A stretch of 64,000 nt of DNA from Brachypodium distachyon (Eukaryota; Streptophyta; Magnoliopsida; Poales; Poaceae), in assembly GCF_000005505.3 (NCBI RefSeq), contig NC_016131.3, positions 63,473,355 through 63,537,354 on the forward strand, given 5' to 3'. The first letter of the stretch is position 1, and each line of letters begins with the position of its first letter. The notes below the pieces were generated by a model that had not been told where the DNA came from, did no database searches, and saw nothing but the letters and a program-made list of their open reading frames with translations. Of this stretch, positions 21,157 to 40,357 are shown in pieces. A program made the position numbers and the translations under genes.

Positions 21157-22220
21157 GGGGATACTTGGCAGCAGCTGCTCAATATATGTGACATTATGTA
21201 CAGCTCCTCATCTGTAGCAAAACTGTTCGATAAACTTGAATAAGTAATGAAGAAAAAAGTTCTTCCTGCTTTGAAGCAATGTTGATTCAGGCCCTTCGAG
21301 GTTGTATCACACCTATATCTAGCTTTTTGATAAATTGTATCGGACAACCATGTTGTGGTCACCTTCCTCCCATGCGTTTGTCGCCACCTCTTCTCCGAGC
21401 TCTGGGCGCTGTTCCTTTCATTTCCCCTTCTTAATCTGTTGGACGAGCTGGCCAGAGGCATCCCTGTAGGCGGTCGATGCGATGCGCTGCTTTGCATCCA
21501 ACTGCGCGGTAAAAAAGAGAGAAGAAAGAGCAGTCCAGAATACAAGCAACAGATATTTACCATGGAGATTCGGCGATATTGCCGGTTAAGAGTTGCTAGG
21601 AGATTGAAGATGCGATTGGGCTCCAAAGAAGCCAATTCACGCAAGATGACATCACAACCTAATGCGATACACTCTGGGAGTGAGCTTCATTGTTTAAATC
21701 CTCTGCATTTCATTTAAGAAGCAAGCCTGGCTCATCTGATTATCAGGAGAAGCCGAAACCCCTGCGTCGCTCCTCGAATAGAGGAGTGCTTGGTCGCAGC
21801 AGGCATGACACGGCGGGCGCTGCGTCCAGACCAGGTTGCTCCCCGTGTCCAGGATGAGCTGCACAGGCTGTGCCGATGGCCAGGTGCACGGCGCAGCCAG
21901 GTACTCCGTGTCAGAGATGACGTCGTTTGGCATAAAAAAAGAGAAAAGAAAGCAGGTGCATGGCACGGGCCTGGCTGCGCGCTGCCATGCGGTGCAGCGG
22001 TTCATGGTTGGTGAGGCCGCGGCCGGCGTCGGCGTGGGTGGCGTGCAGCCACAGCCCACAGAGCTGCCGCATCGCAGTAAGAAATGGTCAGTGCAATCAA
22101 CAACAGCAGCGGAAGTATTTTCTTCTGGAGCTGATTCATTGCTTCAACTCTTGCAGCATGGAAGGCAGTTAGGCAGCCACGTTTAGTCTGCAAGAAATTG
22201 ATATCGACATAGAGTTTGAC
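21157..22220. other. Intergenic and 3' flank of G6PD4, no gene seen
   Basis: The first 100 bp is probably the G6PD4 3' UTR. The rest has short overlapping open frames on both strands with no recognisable domain. It borders the inverted repeat at 22.2 kb. Confidence 0.5.
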
Positions 22221-22567
22221 CTCTTTCACTGTACCTTCAAATGAGTATGAGCCCTCCATTTCAGTCAATCCAATGGATCAGAATGAATCGTACTCCAACA
22301 CAGCTAGGAGGGACTACCACCTTAGAAACGAGAGGAGTACGTCGATTCAGGGGTAAAAAGGTAAGCTCCGATTTGAACACGACAAACTTAATTTAATTTG
22401 GATAAACATATCACTGCTTGCAGTTGGTAAGTTTCAAAAATCCCCCGACGCATCCCCAATCCTCTCCAGCATGCCCGTGCCAGAGACAAGGCCCCGACAC
22501 AAGGTCGCGGCTGTAGCCTTTCCCGTGGTTTTTTTGGGGGGGGGGGGGCGTGTCCTCCGGAGCCGAC

Positions 22568-22767
22568 CTCCTAATCTGCTGGTGGAGGGCGGGGGCACCG
22601 GCGGACGATTCACTAACGCGGACCTGCACAACGGTTTCTACTTCACCGACCTCGAGTTCCCCTCCCTCTCCGACGACTCCCCTGTCGTCTCTTCCACCGC
22701 CGGACTAAGGCAAGAAGGTCATTCCCGCCGAGCTGGAGCTCCTCGATCCCAAGCGCGCAAAGAGGTG
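22568..22767 (+). pseudogene. bZIP-like gene fragment, left arm
   Basis: The plus strand encodes a stretch containing FYFTDLEFPSLSDDSP. After a one-base frame change it encodes ELELLDPKRAKR, followed at once by a GT donor (GTGAGG). DPKRAKR is the start of the basic region in group I (RF2a/VIP1-like) plant bZIPs, where I expect the downstream exon to continue with the DNA-binding helix. That continuation is absent. The frameshift and truncation mark it as a captured, non-functional fragment. Family assignment is moderate. Confidence 0.55.
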
Positions 22768-22814
22768 AGGCCATCCTGAGCTCTTCCCACTTTATGGCGT
22801 TGTGTGAAGATTGA

Positions 22815-23124
22815 TAGTTGTAAAGGCGATTTGCACCTATAGTTTGTGATGCTCTGCATCAGATGATGGAATGTAAGGCTGGTCCAATTAATGTTTTTGA
22901 TGCCTTCGATGTCAACAAGAAGGGCCAGATAGTTAGTGCTGATGCTTCTCTTTGTTGTAAGGAATAAGACAACAACAATTGAACATCGCAGGAATCTCCT
23001 AATGAAGTGCTCATCGCAAGAGCCCTCGTTCATGGTTATCTGCTCAACCAATGCATTGAAAGTAATTTCTGTTCCATTTGGATCTTTGTATAACTTGTAC
23101 AGTTCGAACACTCTCTCGCAATAA
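22815..23124 (-). pseudogene. Second captured gene fragment, left arm
   Basis: The minus strand is open across most of this arm. It encodes TTKRSISTNYLALL, then IKNINWTSLTFHHLMQSI. The pattern (TTK, YL, a D-x-E-x-I run, NW, then L-MQSI) resembles a conserved block I remember from plant mobile-domain and Ulp1-associated proteins often carried by Mutator-like elements. I am not sure of the family. The same fragment lies in the right arm with substitutions. Confidence 0.4.
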
Positions 23125-23289
23125 GACACTCATTGTGCAAGGATCTGGCGGACCAATTTGTTATTGCACAACAAGCTTTCACGTTGGAGATTCAATGCTA
23201 CAGATGTCCATACAAGATGCCTCACATATCTTGGCGTTGCCTTCAGAAGGCCAGGAAGTCGCTGCTGCCCGAGCCTAGTACCTGGCAAT
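23125..23289. other. Loop between the inverted-repeat arms
   Basis: About 165 bp of unpaired sequence separates the two arms. It has an open plus frame without recognised similarity. In a transcript across the whole repeat it would be the hairpin loop. Confidence 0.8.
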
Positions 23290-23998
23290 TTATTGTGGGA
23301 GAGAGTGTCCGAACTGTAGAAGTTATACAAAGATCCAATTGGAACAGAAATTACTTTCAATGGACTGGTTGAGCAGATAACCATGAACAAGGGCTCTAGT
23401 GATGAGCACTTCATTAGGAGATTCCTGCAATGTTCAATTGTTGTTGTCTTATGCCCTACAACAAAGAGAAGCGTTATCACTAACTATCTGGCCCTTTTTG
23501 TTGACATCGAAGGCATCAAAAACATTAATTGGACCAGCCTTACATTACATCATATGATGCAGAGCATCACAAACTATAGTTGCAAATCGCCTTCACAACT
23601 ATCAATCTTCACATGACGCATAAAATTGAACAAGGAAGAGCTCAAGATGGCCTCACCTCTTTGCGCGCTTAGGACCGAGGAGCTCCAGCTCGGCGGGAAA
23701 GGCCTTGGCGTAGTATGGCAGCGGAAGAGGCCACGAGGGAGCCATCGGAGAGGGAGGGGAACCCGAGGCCGGTGAAGCAGAAACTGCTGTGCAAGTCTGC
23801 ATCGGTGACCCGAAATCGTCCGTCGATGCCACCGCTCTCCATCAACAGCGCCAACAGATTAGGAGGTCATCTCCGGCAAACATGGTCTCCCCAGCCCTCC
23901 ACCCTAGCTGTGTTGGAGTACGGTTCATTCTCATCCATTGGATTGACTGAAATGGAGAGCTCATATTCATATGAAGGTACACTAAAAGAGCTCTTCAA
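23290..23998. repeat. Right arm of a large inverted repeat
   Basis: Reverse complement of the left arm. It lacks the roughly 230-bp segment of the left arm that includes the G-run. The plus-strand fragment encoding LCPTTKRSV and IKNINWTSLTLHHMMQSI is at about 23383-23616, and the minus-strand bZIP-like fragment (SFCFTGLGFPSLSDGS and ELELLGPKRAKR) is at about 23655-23870. Similarity fades near 23998. Confidence 0.85.
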
Positions 23999-24320
23999 GG
24001 TTTGCAGGCATGCTGAAAAATGAAGAAGTTGTATCTTGTTTGATTATTTTCTTCACCAAATCCAGATACACACACGTAGTTTATGTAGCAACTTGGTCTT
24101 CCACATGTGGTAGAAAGCGGTATTTACCATCTCAGTTTACCCATTGTTAAATGAAGGCAAAAAAACATATAACTTGTTTCTTACAAGCGCAACCAATGTT
24201 ATCATTTTGTCAGCCGGCATAATTTTCAATCCAATGTACGGCCCGAAAAAGAAAAGGAATCAAGATATCTACAATGGAAAATAATATGATGAGGTTCGGA
24301 AGTGGGACAGAGGGAGTAGT

Positions 24321-24413: not shown

Positions 24414-25110
24414 ATCAACTAAATGTTCCGTCGCTTGCAACAATCCAACAAACTAATGCTTTATTAAGTAATCAAAACTTCCTTATTTCTTTGAATTATT
24501 TCAAGTAAATGCTTTGTGGTTAGCATATTTGTGACAGTGATGGTTTTTTCAAACAATTTTTCAAATGGTAGTGATAACCTGACACTAACACGGTTATCAA
24601 AATTAGTTGTACTTCTAGTTTAATAAGTGAGGATTAGATTCTGAAGTGCTCCTAATTCGTGGAACTGTAGAAAACCAACTCATAAATGGGCAAGATGACA
24701 GAGAAACCTCTATTTGAAACTTTTCTTATATAAAAGAACCACAGGAAATCAGTAGCTGGTAGATTTACCTTGATGATCTATCCTTCCGTTGGCCAAGTAA
24801 ATTACTGAAAGCTGATAAGGGATAACCAATCAAATCTAACGGCCATCTTTGACAATCAAATATCCACAACTCATACAAACAATCTGCATGGCGTGCACTT
24901 TACTAACCACTGCAGGCACATTCATGTGTTTTGTCATGCCATGACTGTCTTGATATTTCGTGTCTGCCAAATTTATCACCTTAAGCTCAAAATGCTGAAT
25001 GAACTATTAGTATCCCACAGCTGCGCTTTCGAGCATCGTAGTGGATATTATATCTGCACAAGTGGAAGTTTAACGTGGACATTAATTGGTGTGCACATTC
25101 AAAGAACATA

Positions 25111-25234
25111 CTCCCTCAGTCTAACAAAGGATGTCTCAACTTTGACTAAATTTGAATGTATCTATACACTAAATCATGTCTAGATACATCCAAATTTTGA
25201 CAAACTTGAGACATCTTTTGTTGGACGGAGAGAG
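25111..25234. mobile_element. Stowaway-type MITE
   Basis: A 124-bp element begins CTCCCTCAG and ends GGAGAGAG, flanked by TA on both sides. The inverted ends share AAAGATGTCTCAA followed by a TTTGAC-type stretch and match almost end to end. It is a common grass Stowaway subfamily and has no coding capacity. Confidence 0.92.
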
Positions 25235-25838
25235 TATATACTGTTAGCCTGAAGTAGGGAACACGATAAATAGCATAGAACGACTAACTTTCACGTCAAA
25301 CTTTCTTCTGGGGTTTGTAACCATTCAAAGAATAAAATGCTCCTGTTGTAAATCCAGTGATTCCCTGCACGAGAAAATATTTTGCAATTGAATTATTGTC
25401 TTTGTAAGAGGTGACTACCCAGTTTCTAATTCACCGTAACTCTGACCTCTAAGATGCGATGTGGCTTAGAGCAGCAATTTGCATGACACCATCAATGGTT
25501 TGCAAATATATCGAGGGAACAAGCTTGCCATATGCAGTTTTCTCATAATGGATGATGAACTTCATGTTCAGATGAAACCTGATTTCTGAATATGTTCCCT
25601 AAGAAGGCATTGAACTAGTTATACTAAAGCCTTCTACTGGTGATAAGGTATGAATTGCCAAATGAAATTATTATTGAGAAACCAAGGGTAACTTTCCTGA
25701 GACGCACAGTGGAAGCATCATAAAATGAGTTACGATTTGGCAAACAAAGGGTAACTGTACTCAGATACCGTGACTTACCAAATGGAAGGTTGAGAACTTG
25801 AGATGATGCAAACCAAGGAACCAACCTGGCCATTCACC
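25235..25838. other. 3' flank of the PPR gene, no other gene seen
   Basis: AT-rich DNA downstream of the minus-strand PPR stop. It probably contains the PPR 3' UTR. No separate open frame with support. Confidence 0.5.
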
Positions 25839-27959
25839 TCACCAATAGTCCCTGCAAGAGCACAACCCATCTTTGAAATGATGGAATCTATTAGCATCCC
25901 TCAGTATGATTTCCCGAGAAGTTATCTTCGTGATTAACTTTATAGCAGAATGGCAATCACCACACACTCTAAGGTTCTTCATGACACGAATAGGCATTCC
26001 TGCTGGTACTTTCAAGAGTCCATATGCCACAGCCTGCCGCTCACTATGGTACCGTAAGCTCTGAGCTTTTTGCTCCTCGTCTACATCATGAAGCACGAAG
26101 CTTCCATCAGCTGAGTAACCAGATTCCATTAATAATCCATCTAGCTCCTCCAACATATTAAGGATAATAGCATGCTCTGGATGTGATAATACATCACCAG
26201 ATGTGAACAGATGCACCATCTTGTTATATTCTATCCAACTACAGCCTGGTGATTTGTTCAAATTCCTTGAACTAATGAACTTCCGCATATCAGAAGCATC
26301 TTCCCACCTCCCGGTGGATGTATAAATGTGAGAGAGCAAGACATATGGTCCGGCACTACCAGGTTCTAGTTCCAACAGCTTCTTAGCAGCAACCTCAGCA
26401 ATCTCAGCATTCTTGTGCATCCTGCAGGCACCCATCAGAGCTCCCCAGATAATAGCATCTGGTTCAACTGGCATGTTGTTTATCAAATCTAATGCTTCGT
26501 CTACAAGACCAGCTCGACCAAGCAAATCGACCATACAAGAATAATGTGCAGCTCCTAGTCGGATGGAAGAATTCATACCCATAGAATTAAAGATCTCCCT
26601 GCCTTCTTTAACTTTTCCTGTATAGCTACAGGCCGTGAGGACCCCTATATACGTAATTCCATCAGGTGCCATTCTCGCCAACCTCAGGTCATCAAATATG
26701 CCGAGTGCTTCCTCCCCCAACCCATGCTGAGCATAACCAGTGATCATGGAGTTCCACATCACGACATCTTTGGGCTCAAACATATTGAAGACCCTCTTGG
26801 CCTTATCCAAATTTCCACATTTTATGTACATGGTAATTAATGCTGACACGGCAAAGACATCCGTGTCAAAGGAGCATCTCAGCATTGCAGCATGTAACTC
26901 CCTCCCATAATCGGCAGTAGCTAGTGCCGCACACACCGTAAGGATGCTAATGAATGATGTGTAATTTGGACGGATACCTCGGCACAACATCTCACGGAAC
27001 GTAGACAGTGCCTCCATCAAGAATTCGTTCTGCTCATACACTTTAATCATTGCACTCCATGTACCATCATCCCTCGCACACATTCTCTCAAACATTGCCT
27101 TGGCAGCATCGACCATCCCATGCTGCCCAAACCCAACCATCATCGCATTGCAGGCTGCCACAGGGTGATCTGGCATTGCATTAAACAGATCCTCAGCATC
27201 CTCGACATGGCCAGCCTGTATGTACCCGACTAACATTGCAGTCCATGACACCTCATTGCGATCAGGCATCACCTCAAAAAGCTTCCGTGCAAGGATAACC
27301 TTCCCGTTTTGAGCGTATCCAGATATCATGGCAGTCCATGACACAACATTTCTCTTTGGCATTTCATCAAACAGAGCACGCGCCTCGGTGATCCGTCCAG
27401 CCTGGCAGTACCCGGATAGCATGGCAGTTCGCGCAACAACATCCTTGTCAGGCATTTCATCGAACAACTTTCGGGCCTCGTTGACACGGCCGGCATCTAG
27501 AAAACCACCAAGCAGCACCGTGTATGTGACGTGGTTGCGCTCGGGCATCTGGTGGAACAGGCGGATGGCGTCGGCCAGCAAGCCGTGGCGCACGTACCCG
27601 CGCAGGAGGGAGGTGAAGGAGACGACCGAAGGGGGTAAGGGGATGGAGGCGAGCGCGGCGGCGGCATCGGGAAGGGTGTGACGGCGGAGGGAGAGGCCGG
27701 CGATAAGGGCATTGTAGGAGCCGAGGTCGCGGGAGGGCATGCGGTGGAATAGGCCGAGGGCGGCGTCCGGGAGGTGGTTACGAAAGTAGCCGGCGATGAG
27801 GGCGTTGTAGGAGGCGGTGGTGCGGAGTGGCATGGCATCGAAGGCCGCGCGGGCTCCCTCTATGTTCCCCGCGCGCACCAGCCAGGCTATGCGCGCGTTC
27901 GCGGCCACCACCGCCGGCGCCGTACTCGATGGCAAGAAGCGGACGGACGGGAGGCGCAT
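25839..27959 (-). CDS. PPR protein, PLS class with DYW domain (organelle RNA editing factor)
   Basis: A single-exon gene of 706 residues. After an Arg/Ser/Ala-rich N-terminus, likely an organelle presequence, come about 16 pentatricopeptide units, mostly 31-residue S-type units (SYNALIAGY, SWTAMISGY, SWTAMLVGY and so on). E/E+ motifs follow from about residue 500. The C-terminal DYW deaminase has the zinc and catalytic signature H638-S-E640 and CGDC at 666-669, then HHFKDG and the terminal DYW triplet at 704-706. All key residues are present, so C-to-U editing activity is plausible. Each unit reads roughly one RNA base, and the editing site is unknown. Length and repeat order recall Arabidopsis At1g56690/At1g09410-type mitochondrial proteins. 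The 5' third is more GC-rich than the rest, as in many grass genes. Targeting is inferred. Confidence 0.95.
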   Translation of the reverse strand: MRLPSVRFLPSSTAPAVVAANARIAWLVRAGNIEGARAAFDAMPLRTTASYNALIAGYFRNHLPDAALGLFHRMPSRDLGSYNALIAGLSLRRHTLPDAAAALASIPLPPSVVSFTSLLRGYVRHGLLADAIRLFHQMPERNHVTYTVLLGGFLDAGRVNEARKLFDEMPDKDVVARTAMLSGYCQAGRITEARALFDEMPKRNVVSWTAMISGYAQNGKVILARKLFEVMPDRNEVSWTAMLVGYIQAGHVEDAEDLFNAMPDHPVAACNAMMVGFGQHGMVDAAKAMFERMCARDDGTWSAMIKVYEQNEFLMEALSTFREMLCRGIRPNYTSFISILTVCAALATADYGRELHAAMLRCSFDTDVFAVSALITMYIKCGNLDKAKRVFNMFEPKDVVMWNSMITGYAQHGLGEEALGIFDDLRLARMAPDGITYIGVLTACSYTGKVKEGREIFNSMGMNSSIRLGAAHYSCMVDLLGRAGLVDEALDLINNMPVEPDAIIWGALMGACRMHKNAEIAEVAAKKLLELEPGSAGPYVLLSHIYTSTGRWEDASDMRKFISSRNLNKSPGCSWIEYNKMVHLFTSGDVLSHPEHAIILNMLEELDGLLMESGYSADGSFVLHDVDEEQKAQSLRYHSERQAVAYGLLKVPAGMPIRVMKNLRVCGDCHSAIKLITKITSREIILRDANRFHHFKDGLCSCRDYW

Positions 27960-28086
27960 GGCGAGCGGAGGTATCGTATGACAAACGAAGTCAGCGCTGA
28001 CACAGACCTATTCCGATGGTTACTGAGTTAAAAAGGCACGGAGTACTGGAGTACTCACTGGTTTTAAGTCGTTCGTCGCACGTAAA

Positions 28087-39566: not shown

Positions 39567-40357
39567 CCATATTTGCCACTCAAATTTTGCCCATATGCCC
39601 AAATGCCGATCAGAATTTCCTTGTTCCAAATTTGCCACTGAAATTTTGCATAGGGTATAAATATGCCACTACGTTAGTTGACCGCTAGTTGACCATTAAT
39701 TAAGAGATGAACAATTATCAATTTTTCATATTGACCAAAATACCCTTGGGTCCACATTTGCAGCGGGGTCATGATTGATGAATCACTGGAGAAACCAATC
39801 TGCAGTAATTAGGCAGCCATATGGTCTAGTAAATCTCAGGGCAATCATGTGCCAATCGTGGAGTTGCTGAGGGGCCATAGCCTGAACGAAGTGTTGAATG
39901 GCCCGTATTGCAGCATATTGCAGCTGGACAGCCCATGGCGCAGGAGAGCGGACACAGGACGTGCGTGCAACTGTAGCGGAAGTTCTAAAAAAAAATTGTA
40001 TCGGGAAGAGAAGATGACGTGGCACCATGAGGAGCCAGTAATCATTATCACTCATTTCAAATTTTTATGCCAAAATAACTACTATTCATTTCAAAATTTT
40101 GCTGAAATTTACTCCGATATAGTGTGTTACTGACATCTTAAAAATCTGAAATTATAAGTTCTCTGAAATAAGTATTTTGTTGTAAAGGAAATCAACATAT
40201 TACCTAGGGGCAAAATTGTCCTTTTATCTCTTACTTAGCGGTCAACTAACGGTAGTGGCATATTTGTAACCTGTACAAAATTTGAGTGGCAAATTTGGAA
40301 CAAGGAAATTTTGAGTGGCATTTGGGCACACGGGAAAAATTTGAGTGGCAAATATCC
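39567..40357. mobile_element. TIR transposon with about 120-bp inverted ends, inside the ECT 5' intron
   Basis: The left end (from CCATATTTGCCACTCAAATT to about 39690) pairs with the reverse complement of about 40236-40357. Both contain CTTGTTCCAAATTTGCCACT and AGTTGACCGCTA. The interior of about 550 bp has no recognisable transposase. Long ends suggest a Mutator-like or related non-autonomous element. No flanking duplication was found. Confidence 0.8.

Follow-up and report, generated by a model that had tools for sequence, protein, structure and literature searches.

A long hairpin in Brachypodium distachyon probably descends, judging from its sequence, from a non-autonomous DNA transposon that captured gene fragments and long ago underwent an inverted duplication on the plan of the Mu killer locus. 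The window in which it was found, the whole stretch of DNA that was analysed, comprises 64 kb (C1:63473355-63537354), and the genome searched comprises 271,293,937 bases in 11 contigs. The hairpin is located in a short gap between two convergent genes. Its left neighbour is a glucose-6-phosphate dehydrogenase-like (G6PD-like) gene on the plus strand, whose last exon frame runs to 21156. Its right neighbour is a minus-strand open frame (25839-28007), which looks PPR-like from its sequence. In a search for an empty site, the left flank of the hairpin gave one 116-bp match elsewhere in the genome (75%), whereas the right flank gave none. The left-flank match falls within a degenerate aspartic-protease-like fragment (21694-22143, minus strand), which adjoins the left end of the hairpin and scored 21.5 bits for TAXi_N, below the cut-off of 30.

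Architecture of the hairpin

A loop of 175 bp (23121-23295) separates the left arm (22218-23120) from the right arm (23296-23993), which repeats it in inverted orientation. The borders are slightly shifted compared with the earlier note, which had described the inverted arms with a loop of 165 bp. Alignment of the arms, proposed there to obtain their percent identity, revealed 605 identical bases out of 670 aligned (90.3%). Identity amounted to 87/95 in the outer end, 195/225 in the bZIP part and 308/332 in the plant-mobile-domain (PMD) part, and the end-and-bZIP part has diverged more than the PMD part (p = 0.037).

On the outside of the left arm lies a transposon left end on the plus strand (22218-22367; terminal motif GACCTCTTTCACTGTACC), recognized by homologous ends elsewhere and by the count of its terminal 18-mer. 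A linker (22314-22550, plus strand) and an internally deleted bZIP first-exon fragment (22551-22764, plus strand) follow. The bZIP fragment, assigned by its matches to two genes termed L062 and L061, runs to DPKRAKR and is succeeded by a GT splice donor at 22765. The inner part of the arm is a PMD-like fragment on the minus strand (22788-23120), identified through PF10536 in a relative, L051. In the right arm, the PMD-like copy (23296-23628, plus strand), assigned by the arm alignment and tblastn, contains a 98-aa open frame (23320-23616). The bZIP first-exon fragment of this arm (23657-23896, minus strand), aligned to the left arm, L062 and L061, ends with GPKRAKR and a GT donor at 23656-23655. 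Outermost, the left transposon end recurs in inverted orientation (23898-23993, minus strand; GAGCTCTTTTAGTGTACC read from 23993), identified by alignment to the family ends. The splice-donor stop of the bZIP fragment and the I-K-N-I-N-W block running opposite to it were both described in the earlier note and are found in both arms.

The surplus of approximately 230 bp in the left arm, also noticed earlier, is real and consists of gaps of 35, 130, 41 and 20 bases (about 226 bp) at the linker, which is absent from the right arm. Because L063, a single-armed outgroup copy, also has the linker, loss from the right arm is more likely than insertion in the left, and the latter explanation is disfavoured.

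With 12-base seeds, five inverted pairs of at least 60 bp within 5 kb were found in the 64-kb window, and four of them are parts of the hairpin. The rarity of such pairs and a predicted fold far below those of shuffled sequences ruled out a chance inverted repeat. A mirror artefact of the assembly is unlikely, as had been argued before, since the arms differ at 10% of the aligned sites and have unlike flanks, and since 21300-24120, when compared with the whole window, gave no match beyond the arms.

Both outer ends derive from one end of a transposon family

The outer 100-150 bp matched ten places in the genome, two being the hairpin's own arms and eight being dispersed elsewhere. At up to one mismatch, the terminal 18-mer GAGCTCTTTTAYNGTACC occurred 300 times in the genome, compared with four matches for the reversed control. 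A partner end (at most 5/18 mismatches, within 1.5 kb) together with an 8- or 9-bp target-site duplication (TSD; at most one mismatch, one-base shift allowed) was present in 15 of the 30 18-mer loci that were fetched. At zero shift 14 of the 30 passed, and the bases beside the 8-bp TSD match in just 2/14 and 0/14. These 14 complete elements are 127-974 bp long and have short terminal inverted repeats (TIRs), with 17-25 identical positions when the outermost 40 bases of one end are set against those of the other. In the 25 element pairs listed, the first 146-152 bp align in 18, more in three and 35-45 bp in four; near the right end, alignment was also seen in five of the 25. From partner ends, TSD counts, element lengths and end alignments, the family can be described as non-autonomous DNA transposons that are short and make 8-bp TSDs.

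Both outer ends of the hairpin align to the left end of this family and face outward, which supports the transposon involvement suggested in the earlier note. A third terminal motif was not detected inside the hairpin at up to four mismatches; the scan used the motif of the left end, to which right ends conform less closely. Nor was a TSD recognizable at the hairpin ends: 3/8 bases agreed at the expected offset (hand count), and the best shifted match outside the ends reached 6/8. The hairpin may therefore have formed in place instead of moving as a unit.

Of 26 interior ORFs listed, ten were scanned, representing ten of the 14 complete elements; they contained no Pfam domain and thus gave no sign that the family captures genes habitually. 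Two kinds of domain near family ends that might have marked habitual gene carriers, serine carboxypeptidase and methyltransferase, fell outside the elements. Among 100 of the 300 family sites, inspected by eye, no left end was accompanied within 5 kb by another in convergent orientation. Two left-end motifs at C3:22294759 and C3:22295964 are divergent and 1.2 kb apart. The 14-mer GAGCTCTTTTACGG was not found in the literature searched.

The arms hold fragments of two genes

The captured gene fragments reported earlier are present as a bZIP first exon and a PMD-like piece in each arm. The search for a parent bZIP gene found no immediate parent: two genes on contig C5 match the fragment in short blocks alone, and internal stretches of them are absent from the arms. 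The blocks in L062 measure 47 bp (94%) and 45 bp (91%), those in L061 88 bp (78%) and 86 bp (76%). In L062, a domain search located the bZIP domain in the exon that follows, and the same basic-region peptide was recognized by eye in L061. Identical stretches are missing from L063 and from both arms, namely 251 bases relative to L061 (212 relative to L062) and a further 12 bases, indicating that the bZIP capture took place before L063 and the hairpin diverged. L063, which lies on the same contig at a distance of 1.1 Mb, has the end, the linker and the bZIP piece (69.6% over 22221-22749), whereas neither a PMD match nor a second arm was seen in it. It also contains three weak left-end motifs, a minus-strand pair with five mismatches apiece and a plus-strand one with three, which were judged to be chance matches.

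In each arm, the innermost 333 bp are PMD-like and antisense to the bZIP fragment. For PF10536 the piece in the window scored 15.7 bits, below the cut-off of 34.9, and its relative L051 scored 43.1, above it. A DNA search of the genome with the PMD part, which scores the best candidates alone, returned just the two arms. At the protein level, 24 further places in the genome matched the fragment, and a protein collection yielded one unnamed match. In tblastn with the L051 ORF, residues 43-67 were placed at 23112-23186 and residues 64-90 at 23174-23254 (joint E 7e-5), while residues 109-208 fell in the right arm; all blocks are on the plus strand, in order and frame-shifted. Since these blocks are collinear with the right arm and absent beyond the left-arm copy, which has no upstream continuation, the loop represents the upstream part of the PMD fragment in single copy and continues the fragment of the right arm only. 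The second fragment of the earlier note is present in both arms, with its identity refined to PMD-like and the loop recognized as single-copy PMD sequence.

A second long inverted repeat with PMD-family sequence was observed at L064:976-4285 (G000:C1:52898975-52902284). It has arms of approximately 1.45 kb that are 84-86% identical and a loop of 165 bp, and it matched neither the transposon end of the hairpin nor, at up to four mismatches, the terminal motif.

Divergence of the arms and methylation footprint

The Jukes-Cantor divergence between the arms is 0.104. At grass substitution rates of 1.3e-8 and 6.5e-9, the age of the hairpin is about 4-8 million years. Comparison of the PMD copies gave a dN of 0.063 (14 changes) and a dS of 0.050 (three changes), and on these 17 changes in all the PMD frame displays no sign of purifying selection. 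C/T differences between the arms affected 14/106 CG, 14/106 CHG and 13/429 CHH sites (CG+CHG vs CHH, p = 2.8e-6; CHG vs CHH, p = 1.3e-4). They are thinner in the PMD part alone (CG 4/26, CHG 3/35, CHH 6/200). Methylation at CG and CHG sites would be expected to leave such a pattern, which is indirect evidence and was compared without an unmethylated control.

Formation of the hairpin

As both ends are the same left end and the loop continues the right arm only, the inverted duplication that had been considered from the outset can be refined to a duplication of half an element. As read from the sequence, an ancestral element with the left end of the family would have taken up the bZIP first-exon fragment, which then lost internal pieces. 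The PMD fragment would have been joined later, in antisense orientation and in the hairpin lineage. The left half of this element would subsequently have been copied back in inverted orientation and the original right half lost, with about 175 bp of the PMD fragment staying behind as the single-copy loop. The linker was most likely lost from the right arm and kept in the left arm and L063. Thereafter we infer drift of the hairpin copy without coding constraint under cytosine methylation. The arrangement would fit either a left arm that is the inverted copy of the right, or two arms that are the remains of a larger palindrome trimmed off-centre.

A chance head-to-head insertion of two separate family members, without any inverted duplication, would account for the left end in each arm, and the family is large. 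It is nevertheless highly improbable, given that the bZIP capture, the missing stretches and the bZIP-PMD junction are common to both arms and that a genome search with the junction and the PMD fragment gave the two arms alone among the best candidates scored. Somewhat less improbable, and still unlikely, is a Pack-MULE whose long TIRs extended into captured sequence. TSDs of MULEs usually measure 9-11 bp; those of the present family measure 8 bp, with matching adjoining bases in only 2/14 and 0/14 elements, and its TIRs are short (17-25 of the terminal 40 bases). A precedent for such an extension exists, since acquired sequence is described as becoming integrated into extended TIRs of MULEs (PMC3310237). 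The Pack-MULE label of the earlier note was not upheld, because the family makes 8-bp duplications and no transposase could be tied to it. Duplication of half an element is thus the reading that we prefer for the origin of the hairpin.

Relation to known systems

Among transposon rearrangements that silence the family from which they arose, Mu killer is the best known. According to the published account, both TIRs of this maize locus (Muk) come from one element end, and two partial mudrA copies end in an inverted duplication (PMC3440606). The same source proposes silencing via hairpin or short antisense transcripts and describes read-through transcripts of a flanking gene where silencing failed (PMC3440606). 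The Brachypodium hairpin likewise has outer ends that both derive from the same transposon end, and it consists of an internal inverted duplication, the remainder of the element having been lost. The two are alike in being part-transposon inverted duplications with one-end TIRs and a deleted internal part, and candidate hairpin RNA loci between two genes; they differ in that the Brachypodium arms hold captured host-gene fragments and Mu killer holds transposase. A further difference is that the Brachypodium hairpin belongs to a non-autonomous short-TIR family with 8-bp TSDs, is old (10% divergence) and would be at most a candidate silencing locus. By its structure, the locus would belong to the Mu-killer-like kind. 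No such Brachypodium hairpin was found in the titles and abstract beginnings searched. A second natural locus with one-end, inverted-half structure, in another plant and with host exons in its arms, would imply that rearrangements of this kind arise repeatedly, and it would serve as a model for when they silence relatives, host genes or nothing.

Young plant MIRNA and hp-siRNA loci arise by inverted duplication of target genes. The hairpin resembles them as an inverted duplication holding target-gene sequence, and differs in being transposon-made, in containing two unrelated fragments and in matching no Rfam family. With Pack-TYPE and Pack-MULE elements it shares transposon ends that enclose a host-gene exon fragment including a splice donor, and host-gene fragments (bZIP exon, PMD) are found without transposase. 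In contrast to these elements, it is an inverted half-element; MULE-type ends with a 9-11-bp TSD were not found, the family having 8-bp TSDs and the hairpin none that is recognizable. The 8-bp TSD of hAT-like Pack-TYPE elements is a feature of the family members and was not seen at the hairpin. In one survey of rice and maize, all hAT elements had 8-nt TSDs (PMC8903248). Captured sequences in maize are regarded in a review as siRNA reservoirs able to silence their donors (PMC13317346).

Predicted RNA fold and potential targets

A transcript of the hairpin is predicted to fold with -1182.7 kcal/mol, compared with -522.6 +/- 13.6 kcal/mol for eight mononucleotide shuffles. The predicted fold comprises 613 pairs between left and right arm, in agreement with the long double-stranded stem anticipated for a transcript, and there are 12 perfect runs of 19-49 bp between the arms. 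Transcription may come by read-through from the convergent flanking genes, and the RNA, if made, would fold into a stem of about 600 bp that Dicer-like enzymes would cut. The resulting siRNAs would most likely keep the locus and its near relatives methylated, with at most a weak action on the two bZIP genes. We regard this RNA step as tentative, with slightly less than an even chance of being correct.

Exact blocks of 26 nt with L062 and 24 nt with L061 are found in the left arm, which has six exact 21-mers to L062 and four to L061; the right arm has none to either. At up to two mismatches, 47/220 left-arm 21-mers matched L062 and 33/220 matched L061, against 10/247 and 9/247 for the right arm. 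Thirty-eight family loci (8 close and 30 motif loci, of which L018 and L033 are the same place) were compared: the best 21-mer had at most one mismatch in five and at most two in nine, and one shuffle per locus gave 5-7. No 21-mer with fewer than three mismatches was found in the five PMD loci compared out of 24. By sequence, the most plausible targets are therefore the two bZIP genes and those loci that are most closely related to the transposon end. Action of siRNAs in trans on a bZIP gene, mainly by the left arm, is possible.

An active trans-regulator, whose transcribed hairpin yields siRNAs repressing bZIP genes related to the captured exon, as envisaged in the earlier note, is improbable. 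The exact left-arm blocks and 21-mers and the long predicted stem would suit it. However, exact 21-mers to the two genes are absent from the right arm, which has few even at up to two mismatches; the arms are 10% diverged and look methylated, and no promoter is evident. Furthermore, the exact matches to L062 and L061 fall in a single coding stretch that is conserved between them and may therefore reflect constraint on the genes. Even less probable is a two-target cassette, in which siRNAs from the left end would act against the transposon family and bZIP siRNAs against the two host genes; if true, it would couple transposon control to a transcription factor. An inert relic, with the origin proposed above and never transcribed, decaying without effect, is a serious contender, although we consider it rather doubtful. 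Decay at CG and CHG sites, the lack of any sign of coding constraint and an Rfam search of 22100-24100, which gave no match at E up to 1 and thus no curated microRNA family, are consistent with it. On the other hand, the gap between the convergent genes (to 21156; from 25839) makes read-through plausible, and long near-perfect stems, if transcribed, typically yield dsRNA. Our preferred reading remains an inverted half-element whose RNA, if made, would act chiefly on the locus itself and its near relatives.

Two other inverted pairs were observed in the window. One at 39569-40355, with 104-bp arms that are 89% complementary and spaced by 579 bp, is perhaps a short DNA transposon. The other, at 25103-25242, has 66-bp arms with 8 bp between them and is MITE-like; it was missed with 12-base seeds and detected with 9-base seeds.
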